Below, piece by piece: positions 2,097 through 15,624 of a stretch of DNA of 15,624 nucleotides. Each line of letters begins with the position of its first letter. The stretch's first letter is position 1. Origin of the DNA: a bacterium (lineage in GTDB: Bacteria > UBP14 > UBA6098 > JAFGQG01); the NCBI GenBank assembly GCA_016930435.1, contig JAFGGQ010000142.1, positions 1-15,624 of the forward strand, written 5' to 3'. The notes under the pieces were generated by a model. The model had not been told where the DNA came from. It saw nothing but the letters and a program-made list of their open reading frames with translations, and ran no database searches. A program made the position numbers and the translations under genes.

Positions 2097-4781
2097 CTAT
2101 TTAAGAAGTAATAGCTTTTGGGTGATAATACGGTCCTGGCTTACTGCCCGGAAAAAATAAATCCCGGAAGGCAGGGTTAAGTCAGGCTCCCATTTAATGA
2201 TAGATTCTCCGGGACGTTCCGGAAACAATCTTGAACTGTCAATCAGTTTGCCACTAAGATCATAAAATTGGTAGTGAATAACTGATTTGGCGTGGACCAT
2301 GAGTTTCAGGTTAACCATGGAATTGAATGGATTTGGGTAAGCTGAAAGCAATTCGAAGTAATGAGGAGCAGATGGTCTTTGGGGGATATCGTAATAGCTG
2401 TCGAACCATTCCAGGACGGCCCAAAGCAGCTCCTCCCGGGTGGCGAAGGCGGGATTATCGGCCATGCCCTCCATTCCGAACCCCAGGTACACTAATTTAG
2501 CTCCGCTTGATGGATTGGAGTATCTCAAGCCTCCATACCCTGTGGTATCACCGGCATAGCGGAATAGTGGAGCCGCTTGGGGTGAAGGTCCGATAATGTC
2601 GGGGGCCTCCTGGTTATTTGCAGAACCATTACCCCCAAGCATGATCATTCTCAGTGAACCGGATACATCATCCCCAGAAATGCTCTCAAGGATGAACTGA
2701 CTGGTATTCCCAAGGTATTCGGCTTGAAGGAAATCAGCATAAAATCCGGTACTGCCCAGATCCTCGCCAATGCCCTGACCGGTGATGATCAGGTTGAACC
2801 CTCTCTCCATAGCTCGGATCAGGGTATCCTGGTCAGCTTCAGTAATAGTAGCAGTGGAACAATCCCCAGTGAACCATATCGCTACCGGTGTATTTAGCAT
2901 TGCCAACTGATTAACCGGAAATAGTCCCCTGAGCTGGTAATCCCAGTGATAGTAACGGATACCCAGATTATCCATGGCGTGCTGGTAGTATTCCTCGTAA
3001 TTATTTCCGGCATCGTCATCAACCAGCATAAGGTCCGCGACCGGAGGGGCAATTTCGATGAATGTAGTCTCGCCGGGAGATACTAGTAGCGAATCGGTTT
3101 CCGATTCCACATTGGGGAATTGGGGTAATAAGTGCAGCTTGTAGTATCCGGCGGGAAGATCCTGTGAGAAATATCCAGAAAAACTATCGCTGTAAGAATT
3201 TGTATATACCCAGAGCGTTGTATCCTGGCAAATATTGAATAGTATTTCAGAGAAAATGCCGCTTCCAGAAGTACCGAGTATGAAGCCCTGAACCGTCCCA
3301 AGAGGGGTGATCTCAAGCATCGTTGTGAGGGTGTCATTAGTATTATTCTCGTCTCCAGGTGTAGATGTTTGGAGGATAATGTAGTGGATTTCTTCGGAAG
3401 CTGGAACCCATTTTACGGGATTATCCAGTGAGAAATTCTGACCGTAAGCCAAGGAGATAGATGTATCCAGCAGAATGATGCTATCCGCATATAAGGTCAG
3501 GAAAACATGGTCCAGATTATTTTTGCCGAAATTGGCAATGGTGAAATTAACCGCAACTGTATCGTAAAGCGTGAGGGGACTGCGGTATTCAAGGTTAATC
3601 TCAATTGCTCCAGCATCTGTCCCGGGAATGGAATCCAGGATATCGGGAAGTCCCATCAGTATCAAATAGGCGGAGATCCAGGTCATATCTTCTTCCGGGG
3701 GGTGCATAAATGAAGAGGGGATACCACCGTCGTTATCGGTGTCCTGAGAGAGCAAGTAGTCGAAAATATGGCGGAAACGATGGTAAAATACCGAATCAGG
3801 CAGAAATTCGCAGATTGTCCGGTAGCAATTTGCGTACCAGATATTCCAGGAGTTATCCCAGAGGTAGGGATCATATTCTGTTGCGGGGTCTGCCATTTCC
3901 GGTAAATACCGGGAATAATAACTGATCCAGTCCCCGGCTTCCTCGGGGTATTCCCGGAAGTAAGAATTGAGTACGCCCCACATAGCAGTACCCGATGACA
4001 TTGCCCAGACCGACCAGTTGAGATGCAGAGAGGGATAGTCTTCTATCCATTCCTTGACCAGACTACCCCACTCCAGAGCTTCAGATCTATAGTACTCATT
4101 ACCGGTTTCCAATCCATAGAGGTAAAGAGCACCGGCGCAGAATCCGGTAACCATAGGATGGAGGATGCGGTAATAGGGTTCTGAATGGGTGAAGGACAGG
4201 GGATTGTTGATTATATGCTGAGCGCAGCTATCTGCATATCCGGAGTATGTTGTGTCGCCATAGGCTTGGCGGTACTGCATTTCAGCCAGCAGACCCAGTC
4301 CACAATTCCAAACCGGATAATAGTAACTGGAGGCGGAATGCTCTTCCTCGTAAGCCGGGAATCGCATTACATAGCTCCATGCATACTCAAGATGATGATT
4401 ATATGTTGTACGGCCGGTATAATCGTGAAAATAACACCAATCCCAGATGACTTCCTGAGTATTGTCGGTTTGAATGACATTCCTTAATTCACCGCTTTCC
4501 GCTTCAATTATTCCCCCGTGATCGGCAGAGTCAGGGTCCAGCAATTGCCAATCAGCGTAGAATTGCACAAGCTGGCTGAGTTTAAGGGGGTAAGACAAAC
4601 GAAGAGCGGAGTTGTATTCAAGTGGAAAAAGAGCTTTCGACCCGTCGCAATAACGCTGGTAGCTTCTCTCAAACTGACTGAAATCATCGTCGTTCCAGAA
4701 AGGCTGTCCAAAGAGGTTAAAAGCTCCCGTAAGGCTCAGAAGACAGACTAAAAAGGGGGCAATTGAAGTTATTTTCCTCAT
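2097..4781 (-). CDS. Secreted multidomain protein: toroid-like helical domain, Ig-like domains, GATase-like domain, sorting domain
   Basis: An 894-residue protein with a signal peptide at 1-26 (hydrophobic core FLVCLLSLTGAFNLFG). Residues about 35-385 are rich in Trp and Tyr with helical periodicity and contain DTDNDGGIPSSF (347-358). This resembles an (alpha/alpha) toroid of the terpenoid-cyclase or glycan-lyase class, but no active site could be assigned. About 390-490 looks like a CARDB-type Ig fold and 495-575 like a carboxypeptidase-regulatory beta-sandwich. About 581-795 begins LMLVDDDAGNNYEEYY and has an alternating alpha/beta pattern resembling the glutamine-amidotransferase-like domain common in secreted proteins of candidate phyla. 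The end is a sorting domain with AYPNPFN (814-820) closing on LLLK. The gene starts 13 bases after the sat stop, so co-transcription with sat is possible. Unlike the sat operon genes it has no recognisable Shine-Dalgarno sequence. The substrate is unknown. Confidence 0.85.
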   Translation of the reverse strand: MRKITSIAPFLVCLLSLTGAFNLFGQPFWNDDDFSQFERSYQRYCDGSKALFPLEYNSALRLSYPLKLSQLVQFYADWQLLDPDSADHGGIIEAESGELRNVIQTDNTQEVIWDWCYFHDYTGRTTYNHHLEYAWSYVMRFPAYEEEHSASSYYYPVWNCGLGLLAEMQYRQAYGDTTYSGYADSCAQHIINNPLSFTHSEPYYRILHPMVTGFCAGALYLYGLETGNEYYRSEALEWGSLVKEWIEDYPSLHLNWSVWAMSSGTAMWGVLNSYFREYPEEAGDWISYYSRYLPEMADPATEYDPYLWDNSWNIWYANCYRTICEFLPDSVFYHRFRHIFDYLLSQDTDNDGGIPSSFMHPPEEDMTWISAYLILMGLPDILDSIPGTDAGAIEINLEYRSPLTLYDTVAVNFTIANFGKNNLDHVFLTLYADSIILLDTSISLAYGQNFSLDNPVKWVPASEEIHYIILQTSTPGDENNTNDTLTTMLEITPLGTVQGFILGTSGSGIFSEILFNICQDTTLWVYTNSYSDSFSGYFSQDLPAGYYKLHLLPQFPNVESETDSLLVSPGETTFIEIAPPVADLMLVDDDAGNNYEEYYQHAMDNLGIRYYHWDYQLRGLFPVNQLAMLNTPVAIWFTGDCSTATITEADQDTLIRAMERGFNLIITGQGIGEDLGSTGFYADFLQAEYLGNTSQFILESISGDDVSGSLRMIMLGGNGSANNQEAPDIIGPSPQAAPLFRYAGDTTGYGGLRYSNPSSGAKLVYLGFGMEGMADNPAFATREELLWAVLEWFDSYYDIPQRPSAPHYFELLSAYPNPFNSMVNLKLMVHAKSVIHYQFYDLSGKLIDSSRLFPERPGESIIKWEPDLTLPSGIYFFRAVSQDRIITQKLLLLK

Positions 4782-4794
4782 CGTGATTTATTGT

Positions 4795-5940
4795 TTAATC
4801 GACGAATGGATTTTTATTTTGAATAATAATATCAGCTACTTCCGGTCTGACCAGTAATTCAGATGGTCTTTCCCCCTTTTGGAGCAGGTTTCTGATCTCG
4901 GTGCCTTTGAACATGATGTGATCGGAAATGGGATGGGGACAAATCTTCTCGTTAACTACTGACCCGCATTTCTTGCAGTATGAGAAGGAACGGAAGAAGA
5001 GTGGGGTTATGCCCAGATCCGGAAAATCATCGAATATTTCCTGTGCAGCAAATGGCTCGTAAAAATTTCCCACACCAGCATGGTCCCGGCCAACTATGAA
5101 ATGCGTGCAACCGAAATTCTTTCGCATTATTGCATGGAAAATAGCCTCCTTGGGTCCCCCATAGCGCATCTCAGTCTCCAAAATAGCCAGCAGTGAGTTC
5201 TCCTTCAGAAAATAATGCTCCATAAGAACCTCATAGGATTTGAGAATGACCTCGTCTTTGAAATCACCAGATTTCTTCCTGCCAATCAAGGGATTAATAA
5301 GTATCCCATCAACGAAAGTAAGGGCAGCCTTTTGAACATACTCATGTCCTATGTGCGGAGTATTACGTGTTTGAAAGGCGACGATAGTCCTCCAACCCTT
5401 TTCCTCAAACAGGATCCTGGTTTCGATGGGAGCCAGGCTATACTTGTAATATTCCTTAGGAGTTTTATTGATAAGGTCTATAGGCCCTCCCAGGAGTGTT
5501 TCATTCATATTATTGATCTTAGAGACCCCAGGGTGGTCGGGACTGGTTGTTCCGAAAACATTCTTTGAGTATTCCTCCTTATTGAGGCTATATTTATCCT
5601 CGATATAGAGGAGAGCGAGGGGTTCATTATTGTAGGTGAGCAGAAGTTTATCGCCAATGGTCAGCCTATTGGCTAAGGCCGGTTCGATGTCCAGGGTCAA
5701 TGGGATTGTCCAGGCGGTATCGTTGGCAAGCCTGCTGCGGTGAATGATGGAATCATAATCTTCTTTGCATACGAATCCCTGCAGGGGGCTGAATACCCCA
5801 ACAGCAATGTTCTCAATGTCCTTGGCTGCATCTTTGTCAACTGCCAGCCTGGGGAATTCATCTATGTGTCCAAGCAAATCCTTTCGGGCTTCTTCCGAAA
5901 GAACTCTGTTTACAAGTTTTCCGCCATGTGGTTTTTGCAT
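4795..5940 (-). CDS. sat: ATP sulfurylase (sulfate adenylyltransferase)
   Basis: Catalyses ATP + sulfate -> adenylylsulfate (APS) + pyrophosphate in the cytoplasm, the first step of sulfate activation. It is the single-chain Sat type, not CysD/CysN. Numbered from the GTG at 5955, the nucleotide-binding motif is QTRNTPHIGHE (195-205) and the second is GRDHAGVG (289-296). The family more often has Pro where this protein has Thr199. A likely zinc site is C327, C330, C339 and H341, as in Thermus-type and dissimilatory-type Sat. I chose the ATG at 5940 over the GTG at 5955 because AAGGAG lies five bases before it. The protein is then 381 residues. It begins 14 bases after the upstream RHH stop and is the last sulfate gene of the operon. 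Without aprAB in view, an assimilatory or PAPS-forming role with the nearby cysC is more likely than sulfate respiration. Confidence 0.95.
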   Translation of the reverse strand: MQKPHGGKLVNRVLSEEARKDLLGHIDEFPRLAVDKDAAKDIENIAVGVFSPLQGFVCKEDYDSIIHRSRLANDTAWTIPLTLDIEPALANRLTIGDKLLLTYNNEPLALLYIEDKYSLNKEEYSKNVFGTTSPDHPGVSKINNMNETLLGGPIDLINKTPKEYYKYSLAPIETRILFEEKGWRTIVAFQTRNTPHIGHEYVQKAALTFVDGILINPLIGRKKSGDFKDEVILKSYEVLMEHYFLKENSLLAILETEMRYGGPKEAIFHAIMRKNFGCTHFIVGRDHAGVGNFYEPFAAQEIFDDFPDLGITPLFFRSFSYCKKCGSVVNEKICPHPISDHIMFKGTEIRNLLQKGERPSELLVRPEVADIIIQNKNPFVD

Positions 5941-5945
5941 TTTAT

Positions 5946-5951
5946 CTCCTT
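5946..5951 (-). promoter_or_regulatory. Ribosome binding site deciding the sat start
   Basis: The minus strand reads AAGGAG five bases before the ATG at 5940. The alternative in-frame GTG at 5955 overlaps the last base of the upstream stop codon and is itself upstream of this site, so the ATG is the better start. Confidence 0.75.
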
Positions 5952-5954
5952 GCA

Positions 5955-6170
5955 CTATTTAATATAACCTAAATCACGCAATTTCTTCTTGATACTTTCC
6001 TTTTCCATATCGGACAGGCCTGAATCATGCTGTTCTTCTTTGTCAAGTATCATTCTGGTAGCATACACAATATAATCAGAAACTGAACAGAACTTGGTGT
6101 TACAAAGGTGTTCTTCGATTTTTGCAAATAGCGATTTGGGAATCTCTATTTGAACAGATTGATCATTCAC
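5955..6170 (-). CDS. Small ribbon-helix-helix (CopG/Arc-like) protein with LGY tail, paralogue 1
   Basis: A 71-residue protein. Residues 4-14 (QSVQIEIPKSL) form the short beta strand and helix cap of an RHH fold. Residues 15-42 supply the two helices, with the usual S-V-S-D start of helix B (29-32). After a polar linker the protein ends in a charged amphipathic tail (52-71) closing IKKKLRDLGYIK. The same tail ends the paralogue at 10026-10247 and CysC. The start is a GTG supported by AGGAGG five bases upstream (6176-6181). It sits between the phosphodiesterase gene (33-base gap) and sat (14-base gap), so it is co-transcribed with them. RHH proteins usually repress by binding an operator as dimers, often autoregulating. 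Here the position inside a sulfate operon suggests regulation of sulfate activation, but DNA binding is not shown. Confidence 0.85.
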   Translation of the reverse strand: MNDQSVQIEIPKSLFAKIEEHLCNTKFCSVSDYIVYATRMILDKEEQHDSGLSDMEKESIKKKLRDLGYIK

Positions 6171-6203: not shown

Positions 6204-7544
6204 TTATACTATGATCCTGGAGTCAAGGTTGCCCGGCAAGGGTATGTCCATAAGGTGCAATATTGTTGCGAATCCATCGTACACATAGATCGGGTCGATA
6301 GCCTTGAACGCCTTATTGCGTATATACATAAAAGCATCGTCATAGGTATGCATACCCTGGAGATGGGTATGACCGAAGAGGGATTCCGGATATAGTTGTC
6401 CCTTGAAATCATAACCATCGACAGGGAGAACCACCATATCGGGTGCCTGATCCATAAGATCACCGCTATAGACTTCCTCTTTTCGGTAGCATTTATTGAC
6501 CACCGGCATGCCCTCTGGGTCCTTTAAATTGGTCATGAGTTCAATGGTTTGCTCTATTACCTCCTCATACTCCGTACCAGGGTTAACCGTTCCATGCTCC
6601 TCCCTCCCTTTAAGATTAACATAGAACCGTCCTGGTATCAGGCTGTAGATCCTGGTTTCAGGTGCAATATCCAATAATCCTCTTTGAGGAGGAATAGATT
6701 TGAATTGTAGCAAACCATTGTCAAGCAATAATTTATTGGGTTGTACCTCGCTTTTTATCCCACAGAAACCATGGTCAGAGAGGAGGAGTAGAGAGACCTC
6801 CTCACCAATATCCTCAATGACCCCTCCGATGATCCTGTCGATCTGCTGATAAAATCTCAGAAAATGGTCATGGTATTCACCATTTTCTTCATAATCTTTC
6901 CAGTAGAAATGGTTAATGCGGTCGGTCTCCATAATATGGCACATAAAGAAATCCCAATCCCTGTTCTTATAGAGATAACGAGCGACCTCCATCCTTTTTT
7001 CCAGGATAAAGAAGAGGTCATGCATTAATTCGGACTTATTCTCACGCGCTTTACCGGAATCTGCATCGATAACATATCCACGGTCCTTGAAGGTTTTGAC
7101 CTCCCTGGAAGGATAAACGGCATTATCGATTTCAGAGGCAAGAAAGCCGGAGATAAGTATCCCATTAACCTTTCGAGGGGGATAGGTTTCCGGGACATTC
7201 ATGACGATTACTTTTTTACCATGACTGCTGATGTATTCCCAGAGGGTTTCTGTACGGATGTCTTTACCGGTAGGTATGAGCATTTCCATGGGGTTGGGAT
7301 TGCGGTCCACAAAGCCGAAAATCCCGTGCTTTGCAGGATTCTTGCCAGTCATAAAACTGCTCCACGCAACAGAGGAGATCGGGGGAATAACCGAATGCAT
7401 ACGGCGCATAGAGCCGATCTCCAATAAGCTTTTAAAATTGGGCATTAAACCCTCTGATATAAGTTTATCAAGAAAGGTAAATGGGGTACCATCAAGACTA
7501 AGAACGAATACTTTCTTGGAGCTTTTGCGTTTTCGAAATATCAT
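6204..7544 (-). CDS. Alkaline-phosphatase-superfamily phosphodiesterase/phosphohydrolase (COG3379-like), operon copy
   Basis: A 446-residue cytoplasmic protein without a signal peptide, of the type I phosphodiesterase/nucleotide pyrophosphatase kind. The two-metal site can be read: D18 in LSLDGTPF, the nucleophile region PPISSVAWSSF (54-64, probably S57), D208 and H212 in ETDRINHFYW, D257-H258 in SDHGF, and H399 in GMHT. There is no C-x-P-x-R formylglycine motif, so it is not a sulfatase. It lies between cysC (21-base gap) and the RHH1 gene, which ties it to sulfate activation. Possible substrates include APS, PAPS or the by-product adenosine 3',5'-bisphosphate, or a sulfated or phosphorylated metabolite. 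None of these can be chosen from sequence. It is a paralogue of the gene at 10501-11874, sharing the IPPI(S/T)(S/T)xAW and FxTGKxP motifs, but has a Ser pair where that protein has a Thr pair. Confidence 0.88.
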   Translation of the reverse strand: MIFRKRKSSKKVFVLSLDGTPFTFLDKLISEGLMPNFKSLLEIGSMRRMHSVIPPISSVAWSSFMTGKNPAKHGIFGFVDRNPNPMEMLIPTGKDIRTETLWEYISSHGKKVIVMNVPETYPPRKVNGILISGFLASEIDNAVYPSREVKTFKDRGYVIDADSGKARENKSELMHDLFFILEKRMEVARYLYKNRDWDFFMCHIMETDRINHFYWKDYEENGEYHDHFLRFYQQIDRIIGGVIEDIGEEVSLLLLSDHGFCGIKSEVQPNKLLLDNGLLQFKSIPPQRGLLDIAPETRIYSLIPGRFYVNLKGREEHGTVNPGTEYEEVIEQTIELMTNLKDPEGMPVVNKCYRKEEVYSGDLMDQAPDMVVLPVDGYDFKGQLYPESLFGHTHLQGMHTYDDAFMYIRNKAFKAIDPIYVYDGFATILHLMDIPLPGNLDSRIIV

Positions 7545-7565: not shown

Positions 7566-8174
7566 TTAGAGATAGCCCAGGGACTCTAAACGCTTTTTAA
7601 TTTCTTCCTCTTCTTCTGGGCTATAGGCTTCAGAACTTCTAATTTCAGAAATTAACTTCATTTCCCTTAAGCCCTTGATCACCTTTTCAGTACTCTCATC
7701 AATGGTTTCTTTATCGGTCTCGAGAGTAATCTCGGGATTTTCAGGTTCTTCGAATGGATGGTCAATACCGGTGAAATCCTTAATTATACCGGCTCTGGCT
7801 TTTGCGAACATTCCCTTGACATCCCTCTTTTCGCAGACACTCAACGGGCATTTGACGAATACTTCAACAAAATTCGTGGTTTCTTCTCTGACATGTTGAC
7901 GGATGGAACGGTAAGGGGAGACGAATGCGGCCAAAACCCCGACTTCATTGCGGCTTAATAATTTGGCTACGAAAGTAACCCGTTTAATGTTCTCGTTCCT
8001 GTCCTCCTCGCTAAAGCCAAGATCGCGGGTGAGACTCTGACGGACAATATCACCATCCAGACGCTCGATCTTGAAGCCCTCTTTTTTAAGCCTTTCCGCA
8101 ACTGCATCCGCTACGGTCGATTTACCCGAACAAGGCAAACCGGTGAACCAAAGGGTGAATCCTTTTTGAGACAT
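7566..8174 (-). CDS. cysC: Adenylylsulfate (APS) kinase with extra C-terminal LGY tail
   Basis: Phosphorylates APS at the 3' hydroxyl with ATP to give PAPS, the sulfuryl donor for sulfotransferases or for PAPS reduction. The P-loop is GLPCSGKST (12-20). It is followed by LDGDIVRQ (39-46), DLGFSEEDRNENIKRV (51-66), the VSPYR segment with Ser86 at the conserved serine position, and KARAGIIKDFTGIDHPFEEPENPE (125-148), all typical CysC motifs. The catalytic domain ends near residue 175. It is followed by about 25 extra residues ending in a tail (184-202) that closes IKKRLESLGYL, matching the ends of both RHH proteins in the operon. AAGGAGG lies 7 bases before the ATG, inside the end of the upstream Usp gene, with two bases between the genes. 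The identification is firm. The tail function is unknown. Confidence 0.95.
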   Translation of the reverse strand: MSQKGFTLWFTGLPCSGKSTVADAVAERLKKEGFKIERLDGDIVRQSLTRDLGFSEEDRNENIKRVTFVAKLLSRNEVGVLAAFVSPYRSIRQHVREETTNFVEVFVKCPLSVCEKRDVKGMFAKARAGIIKDFTGIDHPFEEPENPEITLETDKETIDESTEKVIKGLREMKLISEIRSSEAYSPEEEEEIKKRLESLGYL

Positions 8175-8176
8175 AG

Positions 8177-8611
8177 TTAATCCTCCTTCTTGTTTTTTAC
8201 ATCTATTACCGAATATCCTTTTTCCCCTATTTCTTTCACCAATTTCTCAGCAATAATAGTGTTTACACTATTCTCCCTTGCTACTTCCAAAATACTTGAA
8301 ATGTAAGGGCCTTCTATTAAAATGATCTTAACCGGAATGCCTATTTTGTCAGCTATGGACTTGATTGCACATAATTTTTTAGAGATTACCTGTCGTTGGA
8401 CATCAGAAATCTCCTGCTCAAGTTTTTCCCGGACAACACGGCCCAGAAAACCGATGTCACAGGAAAGCCGAAGTGTTTGGCCGGAGACCTCTTTTTCCAG
8501 AACATCCAGTAAGAGCAACTGTGCCCCATTTTTAGCGGCATAATCCAGAGAAAATTCTGCGAGTTCCCGTGGGATAAAGACAGAAGAAAATACCACCATT
8601 ACCGTTTTCAT
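8177..8611 (-). CDS. UspA-like universal stress protein domain
   Basis: A 144-residue protein. It opens MKTVMVVFSSVFIPRELAEFS (beta 1 and helix 1), then an AAKNGAQLLLLDVLE strand (25-39), a long charged helix (about 58-90), a strand at IPVKIILIEGP (92-102), and a helix and strand at ISSILEVARENSVNTIIAEK (104-123). This is the alpha/beta order of the UspA fold. The ATP-binding signature G-2x-G-9x-G-(S/T) of the UspFG branch is absent near the C-terminus, so it is more like non-nucleotide-binding UspA. GGAGG lies upstream of the ATG, within the 17 bases separating it from the transporter stop. Usp proteins next to transporters often act as regulatory or stability partners. Here its location between an SLC13 transporter and cysC suggests modulation of uptake, which is an inference. 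Confidence 0.75.
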   Translation of the reverse strand: MKTVMVVFSSVFIPRELAEFSLDYAAKNGAQLLLLDVLEKEVSGQTLRLSCDIGFLGRVVREKLEQEISDVQRQVISKKLCAIKSIADKIGIPVKIILIEGPYISSILEVARENSVNTIIAEKLVKEIGEKGYSVIDVKNKKED

Positions 8612-8628
8612 TACTTATATCCTCCGAA

Positions 8629-10026
8629 TTAATTCAATATATCAATACCTATTAATGGCCAATAAACCAAACCAATTATTAAAAAGAGCAACCAGGCCAG
8701 AATATTCATAATCAGGCCTGGCTTTAAAATGTCCTTGATCATATAATATCCTGATGAGTAGGCTATGGCACTGGGAGGAGTTCCAATTGGAAGCATGAAC
8801 GTAAGACCAGAAGGGATGGCTACAGCAAAAACCAGTACTTTAGGATTAATATGAGCTTGGGGCCCGATAGCAAAGGCAATGGGCAGCAAAATTGCTACCG
8901 CGGCAGTATTACTGATACCTTCGGTAATTATCTTTGCGATTAGTGCGATCAAGGCAATAAATAAAAGCGGTGAAATGTGGGAATTATCCAGTAACCAGGT
9001 CATTAACCATTCAGCTCCTTTGGTATGGGCCAAAGCAGCCCCCAGAGAAATGGCGCCGCCATACATCAGGATTACTCCCCAGTTAACATAACTCTCTACA
9101 TCCTCCCATTTAATAAGATTGAGTATAAATAAAAAACAGGTGGAAAGTAGCGCGATAACTGCTAATCCAAGTCGTCCACTAACAAATACCCAGCAAATAA
9201 CCGTAAGCGCTACAATAAATGCCACTTTTTTCTCAGGAATTGTGAATTTGCCGATTTTTTTTAGCTCATCCTGTAAACCCAGGATCGCTTGGCTGATATT
9301 CAAAGGCTCTGGTTTGAAAAACTTGAAAAGAATGTAAACAGCAATGAGTAATAGGATCACTACCAAAGGGAAAGTAGCCAGAAACCACTCGAAAAAGCCA
9401 ATGCTAATACCTGCATTATCTTTTAGAAAGGCAATAGCAAGAGGATTCCGGGCACCTCCCAGGAAAGTGCCAATCCCTCCGATAATAGCCCCCCAGGCCA
9501 TTGATAGAAAAAGAAGCTTTCCATAATTACTCTTCTGAGGCTCTATATCAAGATTATTAGCGATCACCATAACCACCGGAAACATGATGGCCGCTACAGC
9601 ATGCTCGGGCATTATGAAGGAAAACAGGGCGCAGGTAACTAAAATCCCTACGATCAGTTTTCGGGGACTATCCTGGAACTTGGAGATCATCATCAGGGAA
9701 AGCCTTCGACTTAAACCGGTCTTCATCATTGCAGCCGCTAAAATCAACGCCCCTAATATAAAAAAAACTGCTGAATTCCCAAAAAGAGCAAAAGCTTCTG
9801 AAGCCTCCAATATACCCGCTAAAGGGATCAAGGCTATGATCAGAAGGCCGGTAACCGGAAGAGGAAGGGCATTGGTGAACCAGAGCATAGAAGCCATAAC
9901 AAATAGCCCAAGAGCCTTTTGACCCTCAAGGGTTAAACCCGAAGGAGTAGGGAGAAAGGTAATTATCAAAAATAGTAAAAAAGCGATAATTACAAACAGG
10001 ACCTTCTTGGACACCAGTTTCTTCAT
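8629..10026 (-). CDS. SLC13/DASS-family anion transporter, probably sulfate uptake
   Basis: A 465-residue membrane protein with many hydrophobic segments, starting with residues 9-27. The second family signature, ISNTAAVAILLPI (371-383), and the following MLPIGTPPSAIAYSSGY (411-427) are clear DASS (sodium/dicarboxylate/sulfate symporter) motifs. In the first inverted-repeat half the usual SNT is replaced by FIMPEHAVAAIMFPV (137-151), and the partner GTPPN loop reads TFLGGARNPLAIAF (187-200). The start codon overlaps the upstream RHH2 stop as TAATG, so translation is coupled. Family substrates include dicarboxylates, sulfate and related anions. Sulfate is inferred only because sat and cysC are in the same operon. 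Phosphate, thiosulfate or a dicarboxylate cannot be excluded. Confidence 0.9.
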   Translation of the reverse strand: MKKLVSKKVLFVIIAFLLFLIITFLPTPSGLTLEGQKALGLFVMASMLWFTNALPLPVTGLLIIALIPLAGILEASEAFALFGNSAVFFILGALILAAAMMKTGLSRRLSLMMISKFQDSPRKLIVGILVTCALFSFIMPEHAVAAIMFPVVMVIANNLDIEPQKSNYGKLLFLSMAWGAIIGGIGTFLGGARNPLAIAFLKDNAGISIGFFEWFLATFPLVVILLLIAVYILFKFFKPEPLNISQAILGLQDELKKIGKFTIPEKKVAFIVALTVICWVFVSGRLGLAVIALLSTCFLFILNLIKWEDVESYVNWGVILMYGGAISLGAALAHTKGAEWLMTWLLDNSHISPLLFIALIALIAKIITEGISNTAAVAILLPIAFAIGPQAHINPKVLVFAVAIPSGLTFMLPIGTPPSAIAYSSGYYMIKDILKPGLIMNILAWLLFLIIGLVYWPLIGIDILN

Positions 10027-10247
10027 TACTCAAGGTATCCTAAGTTTTTAAGCCGGTTCCTGATTAAATCAATTTCACGTCCGGAAAGCTTTTCCGCATT
10101 ATCAAGGTGGCCACCAGCAAGGATGTCCCTCATTACCCATACCATGAAATCGGTAACCGAACTGAAGCCAGTATTCTCTATGAGATCCTTTAACTGATTG
10201 TATAGATGTCTGGGTATCTTGATGGTAACTTTGCTTTCTTTTTCCAT
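10026..10247 (-). CDS. Small ribbon-helix-helix (CopG/Arc-like) protein with LGY tail, paralogue 2, first gene of operon
   Basis: A 73-residue protein. KVTIKIPRHLYNQL (6-19) is the RHH beta strand and start of helix A. NTGFSSVTDFMVWVMRDIL (25-43) matches residues 24-42 of the first paralogue (shared N-T-x-F-x-S-V-x-D-x-x-V and R-x-I-L). The C-terminus (54-73) is the charged tail closing IRNRLKNLGYLE. The ATG has GGAG seven bases upstream, and its TAA overlaps the transporter ATG. As the first gene after a strong promoter (10282-10309), it is a good candidate for an autoregulator. A 7-base inverted repeat (10261-10267 and 10287-10293) spans that start region. Binding to that site is a hypothesis. 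Confidence 0.85.
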   Translation of the reverse strand: MEKESKVTIKIPRHLYNQLKDLIENTGFSSVTDFMVWVMRDILAGGHLDNAEKLSGREIDLIRNRLKNLGYLE

Positions 10248-10500: not shown

Positions 10501-11874
10501 TTATCGGATAACTTTCCCCTGGATATCCTGGGGAATTTTCATGTCATAGAAGTCCAAAATAGTAGGACACACATCCAGGATATTAAATTGCTGTTCCCGT
10601 GGATCATTTCCTAACTTGCTATTTGAGATGATCAGGATGCCGTGTTGTGCATGGTTGGAGTCATCGGGCCCTGTATCATTTTCATGAAGCCAGAAAGTAT
10701 TGTGTCCGACTGTTCCTGCTGAACGCCAGTAAAGGTTTCCGAAGATAACGATCAGATCGGGGGGGATCCGGTTGACATTGGCATAGATATCCTCAGCCCG
10801 GTAAACCTTTGTTCCGATGGGCTGGCCGTTTTCATCACCGAGTTTTTCTAACCGGGTTTTTATCTCCGCCCGAAGTGCTTCGTATTCATCCGGTTCCACC
10901 ACACCCTGGGGCTCTCTACCTTTCACATTCATAAAGATCCGGCTGTAGTAACCCCCGGAACCCCATACCTTGGTTCTGCTAAAATCTATCTTATCCCAGG
11001 TCAGTTTAGTTACGTCCTTGGGCTTTTCTTTTAAGAAGAGATAGCCCTTATCAATGAGCCAGTCATTTATGCAGATGGCCCCGTCCATTCTTTGGGCTCC
11101 ATGGTCCGATACTACTATTATAGTTGTGTCCTTATCCACAACTTCAATCAATTCGCCGATTTTTTTATCGATAAACTGATAGTATTCCAATCCGGCATTC
11201 TCAAAAGGGTTGCCCGGTTCGAAGTGACGGTGTTCAGGATCGAAGTATTTCCAAAAGGCATGATGAAGCCGGTCAATACCCATTTCCACGAACATGAAGA
11301 AATCCCAGGGTTTCGTCCGAATAAAATGTTTTGCTACCTTGAACCGTTGTTCGGACATCTCGTAAAGCCTTTTCAGCAAACTGGCTTTGTCCTCGGTACG
11401 GAAACCTGTTACGTCAAAAATATATTCACCAACCAGGTCTTCTACTTCTTTCTTCAGGGAAACGGGATAGGTGAACTGGGATTGAGCCGAGGGGGTGAGG
11501 AAAGCAGTGATCATCCAGCCATTTAATTCTTTGGGGGGATAGGATGGCGGAAATCCTATCACGAAGGATTTTTTATCTGCCTCGCCAAGGTAATCCCATA
11601 CCGTTTTATCATTAATGAATTTTGAGTTCACTATCGCCAGATCGGAATAATCGTAGGCTTTTCTGTTACGGAACCCGTAAAATCCGAGCGTTCCGGGGTC
11701 TTTTCCGGTAAACATACACGCCCAGGCAGGGGTGGTAATAGGGGGGATAGTGCTTTTCAACCTTCCATGAATACCGTTTTTCATCAGCCTGTCCAGATTG
11801 GGCAATTTAGAACGCCACTGCTCGAAGATAAATTGCGGTGTCGCACAGTCAAGACCGATCACTATAACTTTCAT
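10501..11874 (-). CDS. Alkaline-phosphatase-superfamily phosphodiesterase/phosphohydrolase (COG3379-like), upstream copy
   Basis: A 457-residue protein without a signal peptide, opening directly on the core strand MKVIVIGLDCATP with metal ligand D9. The nucleophile region is IPPITTPAWACMFTGKDPG (43-61, probably T47). Other ligands are D201 and H205 in GIDRLHHAFW, D257-H258 in SDHGA, and H408 in NHAQHG. All are in the order expected for type I phosphodiesterase/nucleotide pyrophosphatase enzymes. Lack of a C-x-P-x-R motif argues against a sulfatase. The start is supported by AAGGAG about five bases upstream. It is separated from the sulfate operon by 253 bases and is divergent from the methyltransferase/deacetylase pair, so it could serve either group. 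The nucleophile region and spacing match the 6204-7544 paralogue. In other bacteria COG3379 members often lie near glycan or lipid genes, and the substrate is unknown here. Confidence 0.88.
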   Translation of the reverse strand: MKVIVIGLDCATPQFIFEQWRSKLPNLDRLMKNGIHGRLKSTIPPITTPAWACMFTGKDPGTLGFYGFRNRKAYDYSDLAIVNSKFINDKTVWDYLGEADKKSFVIGFPPSYPPKELNGWMITAFLTPSAQSQFTYPVSLKKEVEDLVGEYIFDVTGFRTEDKASLLKRLYEMSEQRFKVAKHFIRTKPWDFFMFVEMGIDRLHHAFWKYFDPEHRHFEPGNPFENAGLEYYQFIDKKIGELIEVVDKDTTIIVVSDHGAQRMDGAICINDWLIDKGYLFLKEKPKDVTKLTWDKIDFSRTKVWGSGGYYSRIFMNVKGREPQGVVEPDEYEALRAEIKTRLEKLGDENGQPIGTKVYRAEDIYANVNRIPPDLIVIFGNLYWRSAGTVGHNTFWLHENDTGPDDSNHAQHGILIISNSKLGNDPREQQFNILDVCPTILDFYDMKIPQDIQGKVIR

Positions 11875-12012: not shown

Positions 12013-12789
12013 ATGTTAATAAATATGATAAAAGAACCTCTTCATGTTTTGCAGCAGCTTCGGCAGCAAGGTGATTATTCCGGCTTGTTCTCGGAGATAG
12101 AGCTTGATGTATCAATTGAGCAATACAGCCGGGGGATAGAGTATTATCAGGAGCAATTAAAGAAGATTGGTTTTGAGGGTATGGACAACCTTCTTGATGC
12201 CGGTTGCGGGCCTGGTCAGTGGAGTATCGCTGCGCTTAACAGCAATAGTAAAATATATGGAATTGATCCAACTGAAGGTTATATTGAGATTGCGCAAACG
12301 GTAGCATCCCGTTGCGGTTTTCCCCGGGAAAGGATATGTTTCCAGGTGGGGAGTGTCGAAAAAATAGGGTATCCGGACAACTCCTTCGATGGATTGTTTT
12401 GTTATGGGGTATTGATGTTTACTGATTATAAGGCGGCCCTTGGGGAGTTTTTCAGGGTACTAAAACCCGGTGGCAAACTTTATATCCTGGCTTCGGATTT
12501 GGGTTGGTACCTTTATTATTTCCTGGGGAAAGGGCTTTTTAAATTGAATTTTGATCAGATGCGTCTGGGAGCGGGGGTAATCATCAATACATTCAGGTTC
12601 CGCAAGAAACCCTTCAGGGCTACTCAAAAATTCTTTTTTATCAGGGCATCCGAAATAATAAAAAACCTTCAGACTCAGGGATTTGAGAAAATATCAAGGG
12701 AAGTGGACATTAAAGACTCATATTCACGTTCCCGTTACCTCGGCATGACCGCTGTTTATGAGATACTCTGTAGTAAGCCTTTGCGATGA
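12013..12789 (+). CDS. Class I SAM-dependent methyltransferase
   Basis: A 258-residue protein. SAM-binding motif I is LLDAGCGPGQWSIAAL (60-75), the acidic end of strand 2 is IYGIDPTEGY (81-90), motif II/III is EKIGYPDNSFDGLFCYGVLMF (116-136), and LKPGGKLYILA (150-160) completes the Rossmann-type fold of the Methyltransf_11/25 group. A C-terminal part rich in aromatic and basic residues (165-258) probably binds the acceptor. The ATG at 12013 has only a weak AGG two bases away. An in-frame ATG at 12025 would give 254 residues, and neither has a strong ribosome site. Its last codon overlaps the next gene as ATGA, so the two are translationally coupled. The acceptor is unknown. The deacetylase-like partner hints at a glycan or lipid-linked sugar, which is an inference. 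Confidence 0.88.
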   Translation: MLINMIKEPLHVLQQLRQQGDYSGLFSEIELDVSIEQYSRGIEYYQEQLKKIGFEGMDNLLDAGCGPGQWSIAALNSNSKIYGIDPTEGYIEIAQTVASRCGFPRERICFQVGSVEKIGYPDNSFDGLFCYGVLMFTDYKAALGEFFRVLKPGGKLYILASDLGWYLYYFLGKGLFKLNFDQMRLGAGVIINTFRFRKKPFRATQKFFFIRASEIIKNLQTQGFEKISREVDIKDSYSRSRYLGMTAVYEILCSKPLR

Positions 12790-14099
12790 TTATGAAAGAC
12801 CAGCCCCGGAGCCAAGAAGAGATATTTCCCCGGAAATATCCATATCCTTATCGGGCGGCGCTGACTATATGCTCAGATATAGACGCTACGGATTACCAAA
12901 GCTTTATCCTGGTTCAAAAATTTTTAAATACCGTCAAGGAAACCCCTTTGGGGAAGGGATTAGGATTAGAAATCGGTAATTCTTTCTGGTTTTATTCGGA
13001 CCCTGCAAACCCGGACCATGCCTTATCCTATTTCGAACCGGATAAACGCACCCTTTCCCCTTACGCAGAGAATCTACGCGAACTGATCCGGGCGGGTTAT
13101 TTAGATGTGTTGCATAGTTATGGAAATTTTTCACGGGATTATCCATTTAAGCGAGAGCTTGCTGAAAGGGCGATTCAGGAATTGATCAGGTACAACCTCC
13201 AGATTAAGGTTTGGACCAACCACGGCGACCGTTTTAATTGCCAGTCAATTGGTGCCGGTTCAGCGGGAGCGGGGGATATACCCCCTTCCCCGGATTGCCC
13301 TAATCCATGCTATCATTGCGATCTGTTAAAAACTTTGGGCATCCGGTATTTCTGGGAGTCTGAAAGAGGGCTTACTGAGCTGGCTGGTCAGGAAAGAAGA
13401 TTAAACAGTAGCGATTCAGCGCTATTAAATCCTGCTACCGATCTACCTGTGAAATTGCGGAAATTATTCCATAGCATTTTGGTATTTTTCCCTAAAAGCA
13501 GAGACGCATTATCGGGTTATACACATTTAAGCCGGAAAAATGATCTGATTGAGCCTATAATTCTGAGGGATGGGACACCAATGATCAGATTTTGCCGTTT
13601 TGGTCATGCCCGTTTTGATTGGGGAGATGACCTGCCCAGAATCATGAATCAGCGCTTTCTGGAGTGTTTACTGAAAAACCAGGGGATAAGTATTATTTAT
13701 ATACATCTGGGCGATAGAAGGAGAAAGGGGAACTCAGCCCTTACCCCAAAAACGATCCATAGCCTGCGGATACTGACAAGTTATTATGATCAGGGTCGTA
13801 TGCTGGTTTCCACAACATGCCGCCTGCTCGGATATATTACCATGTTTAAATTGCTTAATTACGCCATACAGCGTGGTAATACCACCGATATTCTTGTGGA
13901 TTTTCCGGATGCTTTTTCCTCCTTCGGATTAAAGATCGGGGTTGAAGACCTGCAAGGTTTAACCTTTTATACCAAGGAGCCCATCAAGACCCGCATCATT
14001 TTTGAGGGAAAGACCCTGCCTACGGTAATCAACCCTCCTGATGGCTCTGGAATGTCCAGTATAATGGTACCTTGGGAGAAGCTGACCTTCCCGCTCTGA
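12786..14099 (+). CDS. Polysaccharide-deacetylase-like (NodB-fold) protein
   Basis: A 437-residue protein with no signal peptide. YRAALTICSDIDATD (22-36) looks like a divergent first motif of the carbohydrate esterase 4 (NodB) fold, with D31 and D33. DVLHSYGNFSRD (107-118) would supply a metal-binding His (H110). KVWTNHGDRF (141-150) and IIYIHLGD (303-310) resemble the later catalytic and His-bearing strands. A cysteine-rich insertion, CPNPCYHC (171-178), is unusual. The C-terminal 60-70 residues look like a beta-sandwich. It overlaps the methyltransferase stop by four bases (ATGA) and ends seven bases before the convergent peptidase-like gene. Substrate and even deacetylase activity are unproven, because the canonical H-x3-H spacing of motif 2 is not seen. 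It may be a catalytically altered member. Confidence 0.65.
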   Translation: MIMKDQPRSQEEIFPRKYPYPYRAALTICSDIDATDYQSFILVQKFLNTVKETPLGKGLGLEIGNSFWFYSDPANPDHALSYFEPDKRTLSPYAENLRELIRAGYLDVLHSYGNFSRDYPFKRELAERAIQELIRYNLQIKVWTNHGDRFNCQSIGAGSAGAGDIPPSPDCPNPCYHCDLLKTLGIRYFWESERGLTELAGQERRLNSSDSALLNPATDLPVKLRKLFHSILVFFPKSRDALSGYTHLSRKNDLIEPIILRDGTPMIRFCRFGHARFDWGDDLPRIMNQRFLECLLKNQGISIIYIHLGDRRRKGNSALTPKTIHSLRILTSYYDQGRMLVSTTCRLLGYITMFKLLNYAIQRGNTTDILVDFPDAFSSFGLKIGVEDLQGLTFYTKEPIKTRIIFEGKTLPTVINPPDGSGMSSIMVPWEKLTFPL

Positions 14100-14106
14100 T
14101 ACTGCA

Positions 14107-15624
14107 TTACTTTAACAGTATTATTTTATTCTGGATGGTTGAATGATCGGTTTTCAGAACCAGAAAGTAGATTCCTGATGAGAGACCATCGGCCTGGATT
14201 TTCAGAGTATGCCTGCCAGCTTCATGGAAATTGCTATCGATTAACTGCCGTTCTTTGCCGAGGAGGTCGTAAATTGCTAATTTAACCTTGCCCGGTTTGG
14301 GAAGGTCAAAATTAACCGTGGCGGCAGTATTGAATGGATTAGGATAGGATGCTAACCCTAATCGTTCGGGCATACTAACTGAAGCGGTTGGATCCACGCC
14401 GGCGTGGCCGATATAGTATTTATAGAACCGGTGAATGGTATAAGCTTCCTCGGGAGCCACTTTCTCAGTGGCGCTGAGTTCAGGATGATAGGGCAACACA
14501 TCCTGAGAAGGGAAGAAAAGGGTGTCTTCGGGATCATCCTCACTTCTCTCGAGCCGGTAAGAAAAGAGGGAAAGGTAAATAGTATCGGAATATGAAAAAG
14601 CGGTTCGGGGGACTTTCACTTCGCAGATGGAGTTCGGAACGCTGAATGTGACGTCCCCACCCATGCTATTGATGGACGTTGAGTTAGTAAAGCCGCCTTC
14701 GGTCCAGAAGTGGAATGTCTCTTCCCACCAGCAGTAAGTTCCGCTATAGGGGTGGTATTTCAGCATCAGGATGGCCCAGACGGGGTGATCCGGATCAAAG
14801 GCCAGGTAGATGTCATCCGGTATTGTAGTTTCCCCTTCGATGCCGGTATAACCCCAGTCGGTATAACCGAAGGAGATCCCGTAGCCCCGCTCCCCCCAGT
14901 TGGCATTACAGATGTTGAATGCGATATACCAATTGTCCGGGTCATAACCCAGCCAGATACTATCCAGGTTAAACATCAGTGGGTCATAGTAAGTGGCGGT
15001 TTTGGCATTTCCGAAGAAGGGTTCCAGGGTATCCCAATCATTCATAGAGCCATCTATAATGATGGGATCGTTGGTCCAGTTGAACATTACCCGGTCATCC
15101 TTGCCGTAATTATCTTCCAGGATGAACAGGTACTGCTTGCCTTCTATCAGGTCGGTCAATTCTAAGGAGTGAGTTGCTTCGGAGTATTCCTCGCTGAATA
15201 CGATACGTTTATTTGTGAGGTCATACAAGCGGCCTCTGGGTGAGGAGAATGAGCTATCGATATTCACACGGATCTCCTCCCGGGCATTAAGAATGGCATA
15301 GCCGTTGCGGTTACCGAAATCGCATTCGGTCAGGCTGATGCCGGGATATGGGTCCCGGTGGGGGTTGCCAGGTATCTCAGGCAATAACAAGGCTGGATCC
15401 CCAAATAGGGTAGTTTCCCAGTAAAAAACGGTATCATACTTGCTGTCGATAGCGAAGAGATCGAGGTATTCTTCCCAACTGCGAAGCCATACTCTTCCGG
15501 TGTAGTACTCCCGGTCATTATAATTTTTTATAAAGAGCATTCCCTGCCCGAACGCGCATGCCGGAGGGCCCTGGTAAAGCTCTCCCCAGGAGAAATAACT
15601 TCGCACTCCACCGAAGGAGACCCG
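14107..15624 (-). CDS. C-terminal part of a secreted protein: gingipain (C25)-like end, CBM9-like domain, sorting domain (partial)
   Basis: The frame is open through the window edge (RVSFGGV... precedes the internal GTG at 15606), so 505 C-terminal residues are visible and the N-terminus is outside. Residues 1-85 (FGGVRSYFSWGE, then ETTLFGDPALLLPE at about 70-83) resemble the closing segment of C25 cysteine peptidases, where a 'GDPxL' element ends the catalytic domain. The catalytic His/Cys would lie outside the window. Residues about 187-395 start IDGSMNDWD (190-198), the hallmark of CBM9/DOMON-like carbohydrate-binding domains. The end is a YPNPFN sorting domain (427-432), closing ILLK. C25 peptidases with such C-terminal domains are exported by type IX secretion in Bacteroidota. 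Assignment to C25 from this fragment alone is an inference. Confidence 0.75.
   Translation of the reverse strand, partial: RVSFGGVRSYFSWGELYQGPPACAFGQGMLFIKNYNDREYYTGRVWLRSWEEYLDLFAIDSKYDTVFYWETTLFGDPALLLPEIPGNPHRDPYPGISLTECDFGNRNGYAILNAREEIRVNIDSSFSSPRGRLYDLTNKRIVFSEEYSEATHSLELTDLIEGKQYLFILEDNYGKDDRVMFNWTNDPIIIDGSMNDWDTLEPFFGNAKTATYYDPLMFNLDSIWLGYDPDNWYIAFNICNANWGERGYGISFGYTDWGYTGIEGETTIPDDIYLAFDPDHPVWAILMLKYHPYSGTYCWWEETFHFWTEGGFTNSTSINSMGGDVTFSVPNSICEVKVPRTAFSYSDTIYLSLFSYRLERSEDDPEDTLFFPSQDVLPYHPELSATEKVAPEEAYTIHRFYKYYIGHAGVDPTASVSMPERLGLASYPNPFNTAATVNFDLPKPGKVKLAIYDLLGKERQLIDSNFHEAGRHTLKIQADGLSSGIYFLVLKTDHSTIQNKIILLK

Follow-up and report, generated by a model that had tools for sequence, protein, structure and literature searches.

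The window, 15,624 nucleotides long, makes up all of contig C5, which belongs to a draft genome of 2.85 Mb. On its minus strand, to which all of the features named below belong, lies an operon with the gene order AP2, RHH2, SLC13 symporter, Usp-like protein, CysC, AP1, RHH1, Sat. The cysC gene (7566..8174) encodes an APS kinase of 202 aa whose kinase domain is complete: PF01583 matches residues 4-151 with 205 bits against a cut-off of 21.1 (E 6e-61), and the NCBIfam model TIGR00455 matches with 236 bits against a cut-off of 138.7. The latter model ends at residue 175, so that about 27 residues lie beyond the domain; the preliminary description had put the extension at about 25. Sat is an ATP sulfurylase (4795..5955; PF01747, E 5e-87) and the symporter is of the SLC13/DASS sulfate type (8629..10026; PF00939, E 4e-73), while the small Usp-like protein (8177..8611) reaches 21.1 bits with PF00582, below the cut-off of 24. 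AP1 (6204..7544; 446 aa) and AP2 (10501..11874; 457 aa) are AP-superfamily enzymes that match PF01663 at 147 and 168 bits, respectively, against a cut-off of 23 (E 2e-42 and 7e-49); a PDB sequence search with AP2 found nothing.

The two remaining genes encode small RHH-like proteins, RHH1 (5955..6170; 71 aa) and RHH2 (10026..10247; 73 aa), which are homologous to each other by alignment (E 6e-7). Neither matched any family among the Pfam and NCBIfam curated profiles, and the related RHH_63 type matches RHH_1 at E 0.02 only. An AlphaFold model of RHH2, made with 34 alignment rows, predicts helices at residues 13-23 and 31-43, preceded by a VTIKIP-like segment and followed by a linker and a separate helix at 56-69 (pLDDT about 85 in the block). 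Foldseek comparison of this model with the PDB gave weak matches, with E above 1, but mostly to RHH proteins, NikR and ParD among them. The RHH genes have AP, Sat, CysC, SLC13 and Usp-like neighbors and no toxin-like gene beside them; an assignment as RHH antitoxins of type II toxin-antitoxin systems was rejected because no small toxin gene is adjacent.

CysC, RHH1 and RHH2 end in a common tail of about 20 residues with the consensus xSxxExxxIKxRLxxLGY[IL]. The tails are encoded at 7569..7628 in CysC (AYSPEEEEEIKKRLESLGYL), 5958..6020 in RHH1 (GLSDMEKESIKKKLRDLGYIK) and 10029..10091 in RHH2 (KLSGREIDLIRNRLKNLGYLE), where the separate helix of the RHH2 model is found. The preliminary description had proposed such a tail, and both the ORFs and the tails were found where it had placed them; all three match S-x-x-E-x3-I-x3-L-x-x-LGY-(I/L), the spacer between E and I being x3 in each. 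Seven of the 19-21 aligned columns are invariant, and none of 200,000 composition-preserving shuffles attained that number, which places the resemblance beyond chance. A profile built from the three tails gave three strong matches in the window's own genome (E about 1e-10, a circular value because the same rows built the profile), the next match having an E of 0.25. A profile from which the window's lineage had been left out, with both the window and its sister genome excluded, detected the tails of CysC, RHH1 and RHH2 with E values of 4e-10, 6e-6 and 5e-5. With a profile of seven archaeal RHH tails, those of CysC and RHH1 were found strongly and that of RHH2 weakly (E 0.03). The tails are thus detected far above random charged helices and are homologous. 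The plain DNA pattern for LxxLGYh, by comparison, is useless as a marker, with 79 matches in the genome against 66 in a reversed control. A weak fourth copy ends a 483-aa sulfatase elsewhere in the genome (C11:23165; EDQNKLEQRLKDLGYF), in agreement with the statement of the preliminary description that bacterial sulfatases frequently end in a similar way. Every tail keeps the same hydrophobic face and Gly-Tyr cap. The shared tail is real and conserved, and apparently has not been described before: literature searches found no description of it, and its profile matched only short partial helices in the PDB, none of them informative, so that no solved structure carrying the tail was found.

Comparison with the sister genome (L063) shows that the tail is under purifying selection. 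Of 19 codons of the CysC tail, 14 differ synonymously, 4 are identical and 1 differs nonsynonymously; in the linker before the tail 5 of 14 residues are kept. Changes in the RHH tails are mostly synonymous too, and the tail has therefore been selected as protein. Across phyla, tails of one carrier type have a mean identity of 0.63 for CysC and 0.62 for RHH2, while tails of different carriers are as dissimilar within a locus (0.44) as between loci (0.43). Since they group by carrier type and not by locus, the tails are not recent copies of one another, and recent gene conversion inside the operon was ruled out on the same ground. The grouping indicates that the carriers have long maintained separate versions of the tail. 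Complete or partial versions of the operon RHH(tail)-Sat-AP2-CysC, in which AP1 may or may not be included, were found in Aminicenantes, Lokiarchaeota, Altiarchaeales, Thermofilaceae, Geothermarchaeota, Omnitrophota, Anaerolineae and Deltaproteobacteria, a distribution that marks the operon as old and widespread.

A survey profile of 35 tail rows was run on 25 genomes reached via CysC relatives, on 149 genomes of the Aminicenantes phylum (the main survey), on 200 genomes of the Geothermarchaeum phylum (Thermoproteota) and on 7 genomes of another phylum. Carriers were classed from the surrounding DNA, by similarity of the ORFs to representatives; the survey was mostly conditioned on finding the tail, and one phylum dominates it. 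The 60 tail-bearing regions of the main survey held 78 tails, which belonged to 41 RHH-like proteins, 20 CysC and 17 AP-superfamily proteins and to no other kind of protein. All but one of these (77/78) lie within 4 residues of the C-terminus, the exception being located where an AP domain meets TPR repeats. In the Thermoproteota 16 of 200 genomes had the tail; together with a small second survey they yielded 25 RHH-like carriers, 2 CysC and 1 unclassified protein of 57 aa that adjoins an AP gene. Those AP carriers that were examined have matches to PF01663 or PF00884. The non-C-terminal tails that were read (L284, L196) directly follow an AP or sulfatase domain and are themselves followed by TPR repeats. 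The tail was also found on one DUF2061 membrane protein (L192). After the tail's Tyr come one or two variable residues (L, I, F, ID, IE, IK, IS or LG). A C-terminus of the HbYX type, which docks on the proteasome, was considered and set aside, as Gly invariantly precedes the Tyr in the survey alignment and one or two residues follow it.

The tail carriers are linked in position to AP genes. An AP gene lay within 6 kb of 52 of the 61 RHH or CysC carriers in the main survey and of 24 of 27 in the archaeal set. Among 80 loci found with CysC, in a search that made no use of AP, 36 had both a tail (on CysC or RHH) and an AP gene, 12 a tail only, 2 an AP gene only and 30 neither; the Fisher p of 4.5e-10 is only indicative, because the search peptides included part of the tail and the loci are phylogenetically non-independent. 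Both of the loci with an AP gene only are on short contigs, where the gene upstream of Sat would fall off the contig. A link of tailed CysC with tailed RHH genes, implied by the preliminary description, was borne out in the main-survey regions, where 11 of the 20 tailed CysC genes share their stretch with a tailed RHH gene; with the profile result above, neither of the two refuting outcomes named in that description was observed. RHH tails were also found beside triple AP clusters that lack sulfate genes. The preliminary description had suggested a fit with sulfur metabolism; because many carriers are in AP clusters without sulfate genes, we reject this as the main axis, and what the tail loci share is neither sulfur metabolism nor this operon but the AP superfamily (PF01663/PF00884). 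Across bacteria and archaea, the tail is almost confined to RHH-type proteins and APS kinases that lie beside AP enzymes and to AP enzymes themselves.

Within the AP superfamily the tail is distributed by subfamily. The subfamilies of the RHH/CysC operons, AP_1 (0/40) and AP_2 (0/53), are without it, as is the 700-aa type AP_702 (0/61), which sits in clusters of the order AP430-AP710-AP665-RHH63; none of these 154 proteins is tailed. By comparison, 36 of 50 are tailed in cis among the 550-aa types of polysaccharide clusters (AP_543, 13/17; AP_550, 13/15) and the 470-aa type (AP_478, 10/18). Loci with a cis-tailed AP gene had no carrier in trans in either the 149-genome set (0/16) or the 25-genome set (0/19); however, tails in cis and in trans occur together at loci L106 and L110, counter to this split. 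Genes that look like glycosyltransferases and flippases, as read from sequence with no profile, are near the cis-tailed AP genes. Some carriers have no AP gene nearby. Among these are tailed RHH genes beside PstC/A-type transporters (L251, L247, L254), beside a TauE-like permease (L203), or beside Sat-CysC alone (L252 and several Aminicenantes), and three tailed CysC genes have Sat alone nearby (L243, L244, L248).

Together, Sat and CysC produce PAPS. A search for PAPS reductase (PF01507) detected none in the window's genome, which is 90% complete, nor in 6 of 10 other carrier genomes tested, and therefore the PAPS made here is probably used for sulfation. In Halobacterium, the AP-superfamily proteins VNG1056C and VNG1057C are N-glycan sulfotransferases, a function that was confirmed both by deleting them and by transferring them to Haloferax (PMC11980604). 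By analogy, AP1 and AP2 are most likely sulfo-transfer enzymes that would use PAPS for glycan sulfation.

The anatomy of the tail was also seen in a model of the cis-tailed AP protein of locus L110. This has a confident NPP-like core, with matches to NPP and phosphonoacetate hydrolase, a linker at residues 507-519 that is predicted to be disordered (pLDDT about 40, below 50) and a tail helix at 520-532 with pLDDT about 65. In this model, for which the alignment held 3 tailed rows only, the tail is not docked with confidence on the AP domain of the protein itself. A linker followed by a tail helix appears in both this model and that of RHH2, and in the two proteins a flexible linker is predicted to carry a free helix.

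Its carrier specificity and its linkage to AP genes make the tail look like an undescribed docking tag. The reading that we tentatively favor, and to which we give nearly an even chance, is that it serves AP-enzyme modules as a flexible helix for docking, whether present in cis or supplied in trans, and would bind the AP domain. The tail would then be a short amphipathic helix with the hydrophobic face I-x3-L-x2-L, a Gly cap and a Tyr, carried on a flexible linker, and an ancient element, maintained separately, of modules that center on AP-superfamily enzymes of the NPP/sulfatase fold. Some AP subfamilies would have the tail in cis, while AP1, AP2 and the 700-aa type may receive it in trans from a neighboring RHH protein or APS kinase. 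In the operon described here, the three tails would bring the PAPS-making CysC, together with RHH1 and RHH2, to AP1 and AP2 as the proposed partners, and the RHH proteins might tie the complex to DNA or regulation. The docking or co-assembly suggested in the preliminary description is thus plausible on comparative grounds, in that one tail on unrelated folds, linked in the genome and kept by selection, fits docking, but its setting is shifted from sulfur metabolism to AP-superfamily modules, and the degradation tag that it had also offered is disfavored. A broader form of this reading is rather doubtful: the tail might act generally, in archaea as in bacteria, as a code for recruitment to AP-superfamily sulfo-transfer enzymes, which would bring in a PAPS kinase for substrate channeling and a DNA-binding RHH protein that couples the state of the enzyme to transcription, and so replace the cis tail. 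The tail is an unannotated but sharply defined tag marking RHH proteins, APS kinases and AP enzymes that may work together in bacteria and archaea. It would predict physical complexes for a large and poorly understood group of enzymes, and it connects the making of PAPS, where reductive assimilation is absent, with AP-fold enzymes of a kind recently found to sulfate glycans.

The lack of confident docking in the L110 model would also be expected if the tail bound a common third partner encoded elsewhere, such as a scaffold, a chaperone or a membrane receptor, and the linkage to AP genes reflected shared oxyanion and glycan pathways only. The tailed RHH genes that have transporters for phosphate or sulfite/sulfate, but not an AP gene, beside them, and the tailed DUF2061 membrane protein, are consistent with this. 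However, the recurrent neighbors of tail loci were a 277-aa membrane protein found in AP_702 clusters only, glycosyltransferases near cis-tailed AP genes and housekeeping genes of the lineage, and a search among them found no extra gene family common to all loci. In addition, the carriers are predicted to be cytosolic in the case of CysC, RHH, AP_543 and AP_550, yet 6 of the 10 tailed AP_478 proteins lie behind an N-terminal hydrophobic segment; with carriers predicted in two compartments, one soluble partner would need to act in both. We consider a third partner unlikely, though it is the strongest of the alternatives.

The constant hydrophobic face and Gly-Tyr cap, and the frequent presence of several tailed proteins in one operon, would also suit tails that bind each other. 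They could pair as short helical bundles through a d-a-d heptad of I10, L14 and L17, so that tailed CysC, RHH and cis-tailed AP proteins co-assemble while untailed AP proteins are recruited otherwise. RHH proteins are typically dimers and would present two tails, which favors such pairing. The tail is only about two heptads long, however, and tails of the same locus are no more alike than tails of different loci; pairing also leaves unexplained why AP1, AP2 and AP_702 are never tailed (none of the 154) and why only one gene is tailed at many loci. It therefore seems to us distinctly improbable.

A C-terminal tag for degradation or localization, recognized by a protease or a sorting machinery, would account for the terminal position of nearly all main-survey tails, but the residues after the Tyr vary and so provide no fixed terminal residue, the tail is internal in two AP types, where TPR repeats follow it and an AP domain precedes it, and is present on AP proteins predicted to be exported, and restriction to three families is unlike a general degron; we give this reading very little weight. 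Least probable is a generic resemblance by convergence, with LxxLGY as an ending common among helices, a reading suggested by the likeness of h-x3-L-x2-L-G-Y to a Schellman-type cap, by the similar end of the native last helix in some APS kinases (...VIQKLNDLGYLE) and by the commonness of the plain DNA pattern, but largely refuted by the survey, in which the full profile found no main-survey carriers beyond RHH, CysC and AP proteins, as well as by detection of the window tails with the leave-lineage-out profile and by purifying selection on the tail and not the linker.

The docking helix that we favor has partial counterparts in known systems. C-terminal domains of antitoxins generally bind the partner, and RHH proteins with partner-binding C-terminal extensions are well known among antitoxins (PMC4803016). 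Like the ParD/RelB-type RHH antitoxins, the proteins described here combine a small RHH-like protein, a flexible linker and a C-terminal helix with an enzyme in the same operon; unlike them, they stand beside AP, Sat and CysC genes with no toxin-like gene, and their tail is shared by AP enzymes and by a kinase of metabolism. The Sat-CysC pair with its complete kinase domain and sulfate-type symporter resembles a sulfate-activation operon, but the CysC has an additional conserved tail, the operon includes two genes each for AP enzymes and RHH proteins, and no PAPS reductase was detected in the genome. The cis-tailed AP genes near glycosyltransferase- and flippase-like genes, and AP1 and AP2 beside genes for PAPS synthesis, recall VNG1056C and VNG1057C, AP proteins that sulfate lipid-linked sugars, although AP1 and AP2 are likened to these at the superfamily level and the accessible part of that report mentions no tail, CysC or RHH partner (PMC11980604). 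The place of the tail on its carriers also has parallels. Encapsulation peptides and docking domains are, as the tail is, short terminal helices that a flexible linker joins to unrelated folds; among the recurrent neighbors of the tail loci no gene for a shell or an assembly line was recognized, and, unlike those elements, the tail is specifically associated with the AP superfamily.

The C-terminal helix (tail) common to the window's CysC, RHH1 and RHH2 was also found in a recurrent cluster of alkaline-phosphatase-superfamily (AP) genes. The order AP430 - AP710 - AP665, followed by a tailed 63-aa ribbon-helix-helix (RHH)-like protein, recurs in surveyed loci L242 (1053-6720), L269, L270, L278, L340 and L341, and in 26 loci the cluster is joined by a membrane protein of ~277 aa without a Pfam match. 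Tailed RHH genes also adjoin permeases, PstC/PstA-like at L251 (5781-7073), L247 and L254 and TauE/SafE-type at L203 and L329, an arrangement that suggests a part for RHH proteins in the uptake of oxyanions.

An internal position also occurs: at L284 (4874-7024) and L196 (1509-3731), a single protein has an AP domain followed by the tail and then by TPR repeats. At L192 (5144-5692) it (ELTPEDMDTVREQLKSLGYID) ends a DUF2061 membrane protein, possibly a fourth carrier fold after RHH-like, CysC and AP proteins.

The window's own genome has another APS-kinase-like ORF, a weak match (E 4e-10), on contig C180 (9088-9516; L034). Within the window, a 437-aa ORF adjoining a methyltransferase gene (12786-14099, + strand) had no match in a Pfam profile search. 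As read from sequence, the domain that ends three large minus-strand ORFs (155-1849, 2097-4781 and 14107-15606) is of the YPNPFN...GLYxLK type and resembles sorting domains of type IX secretion.
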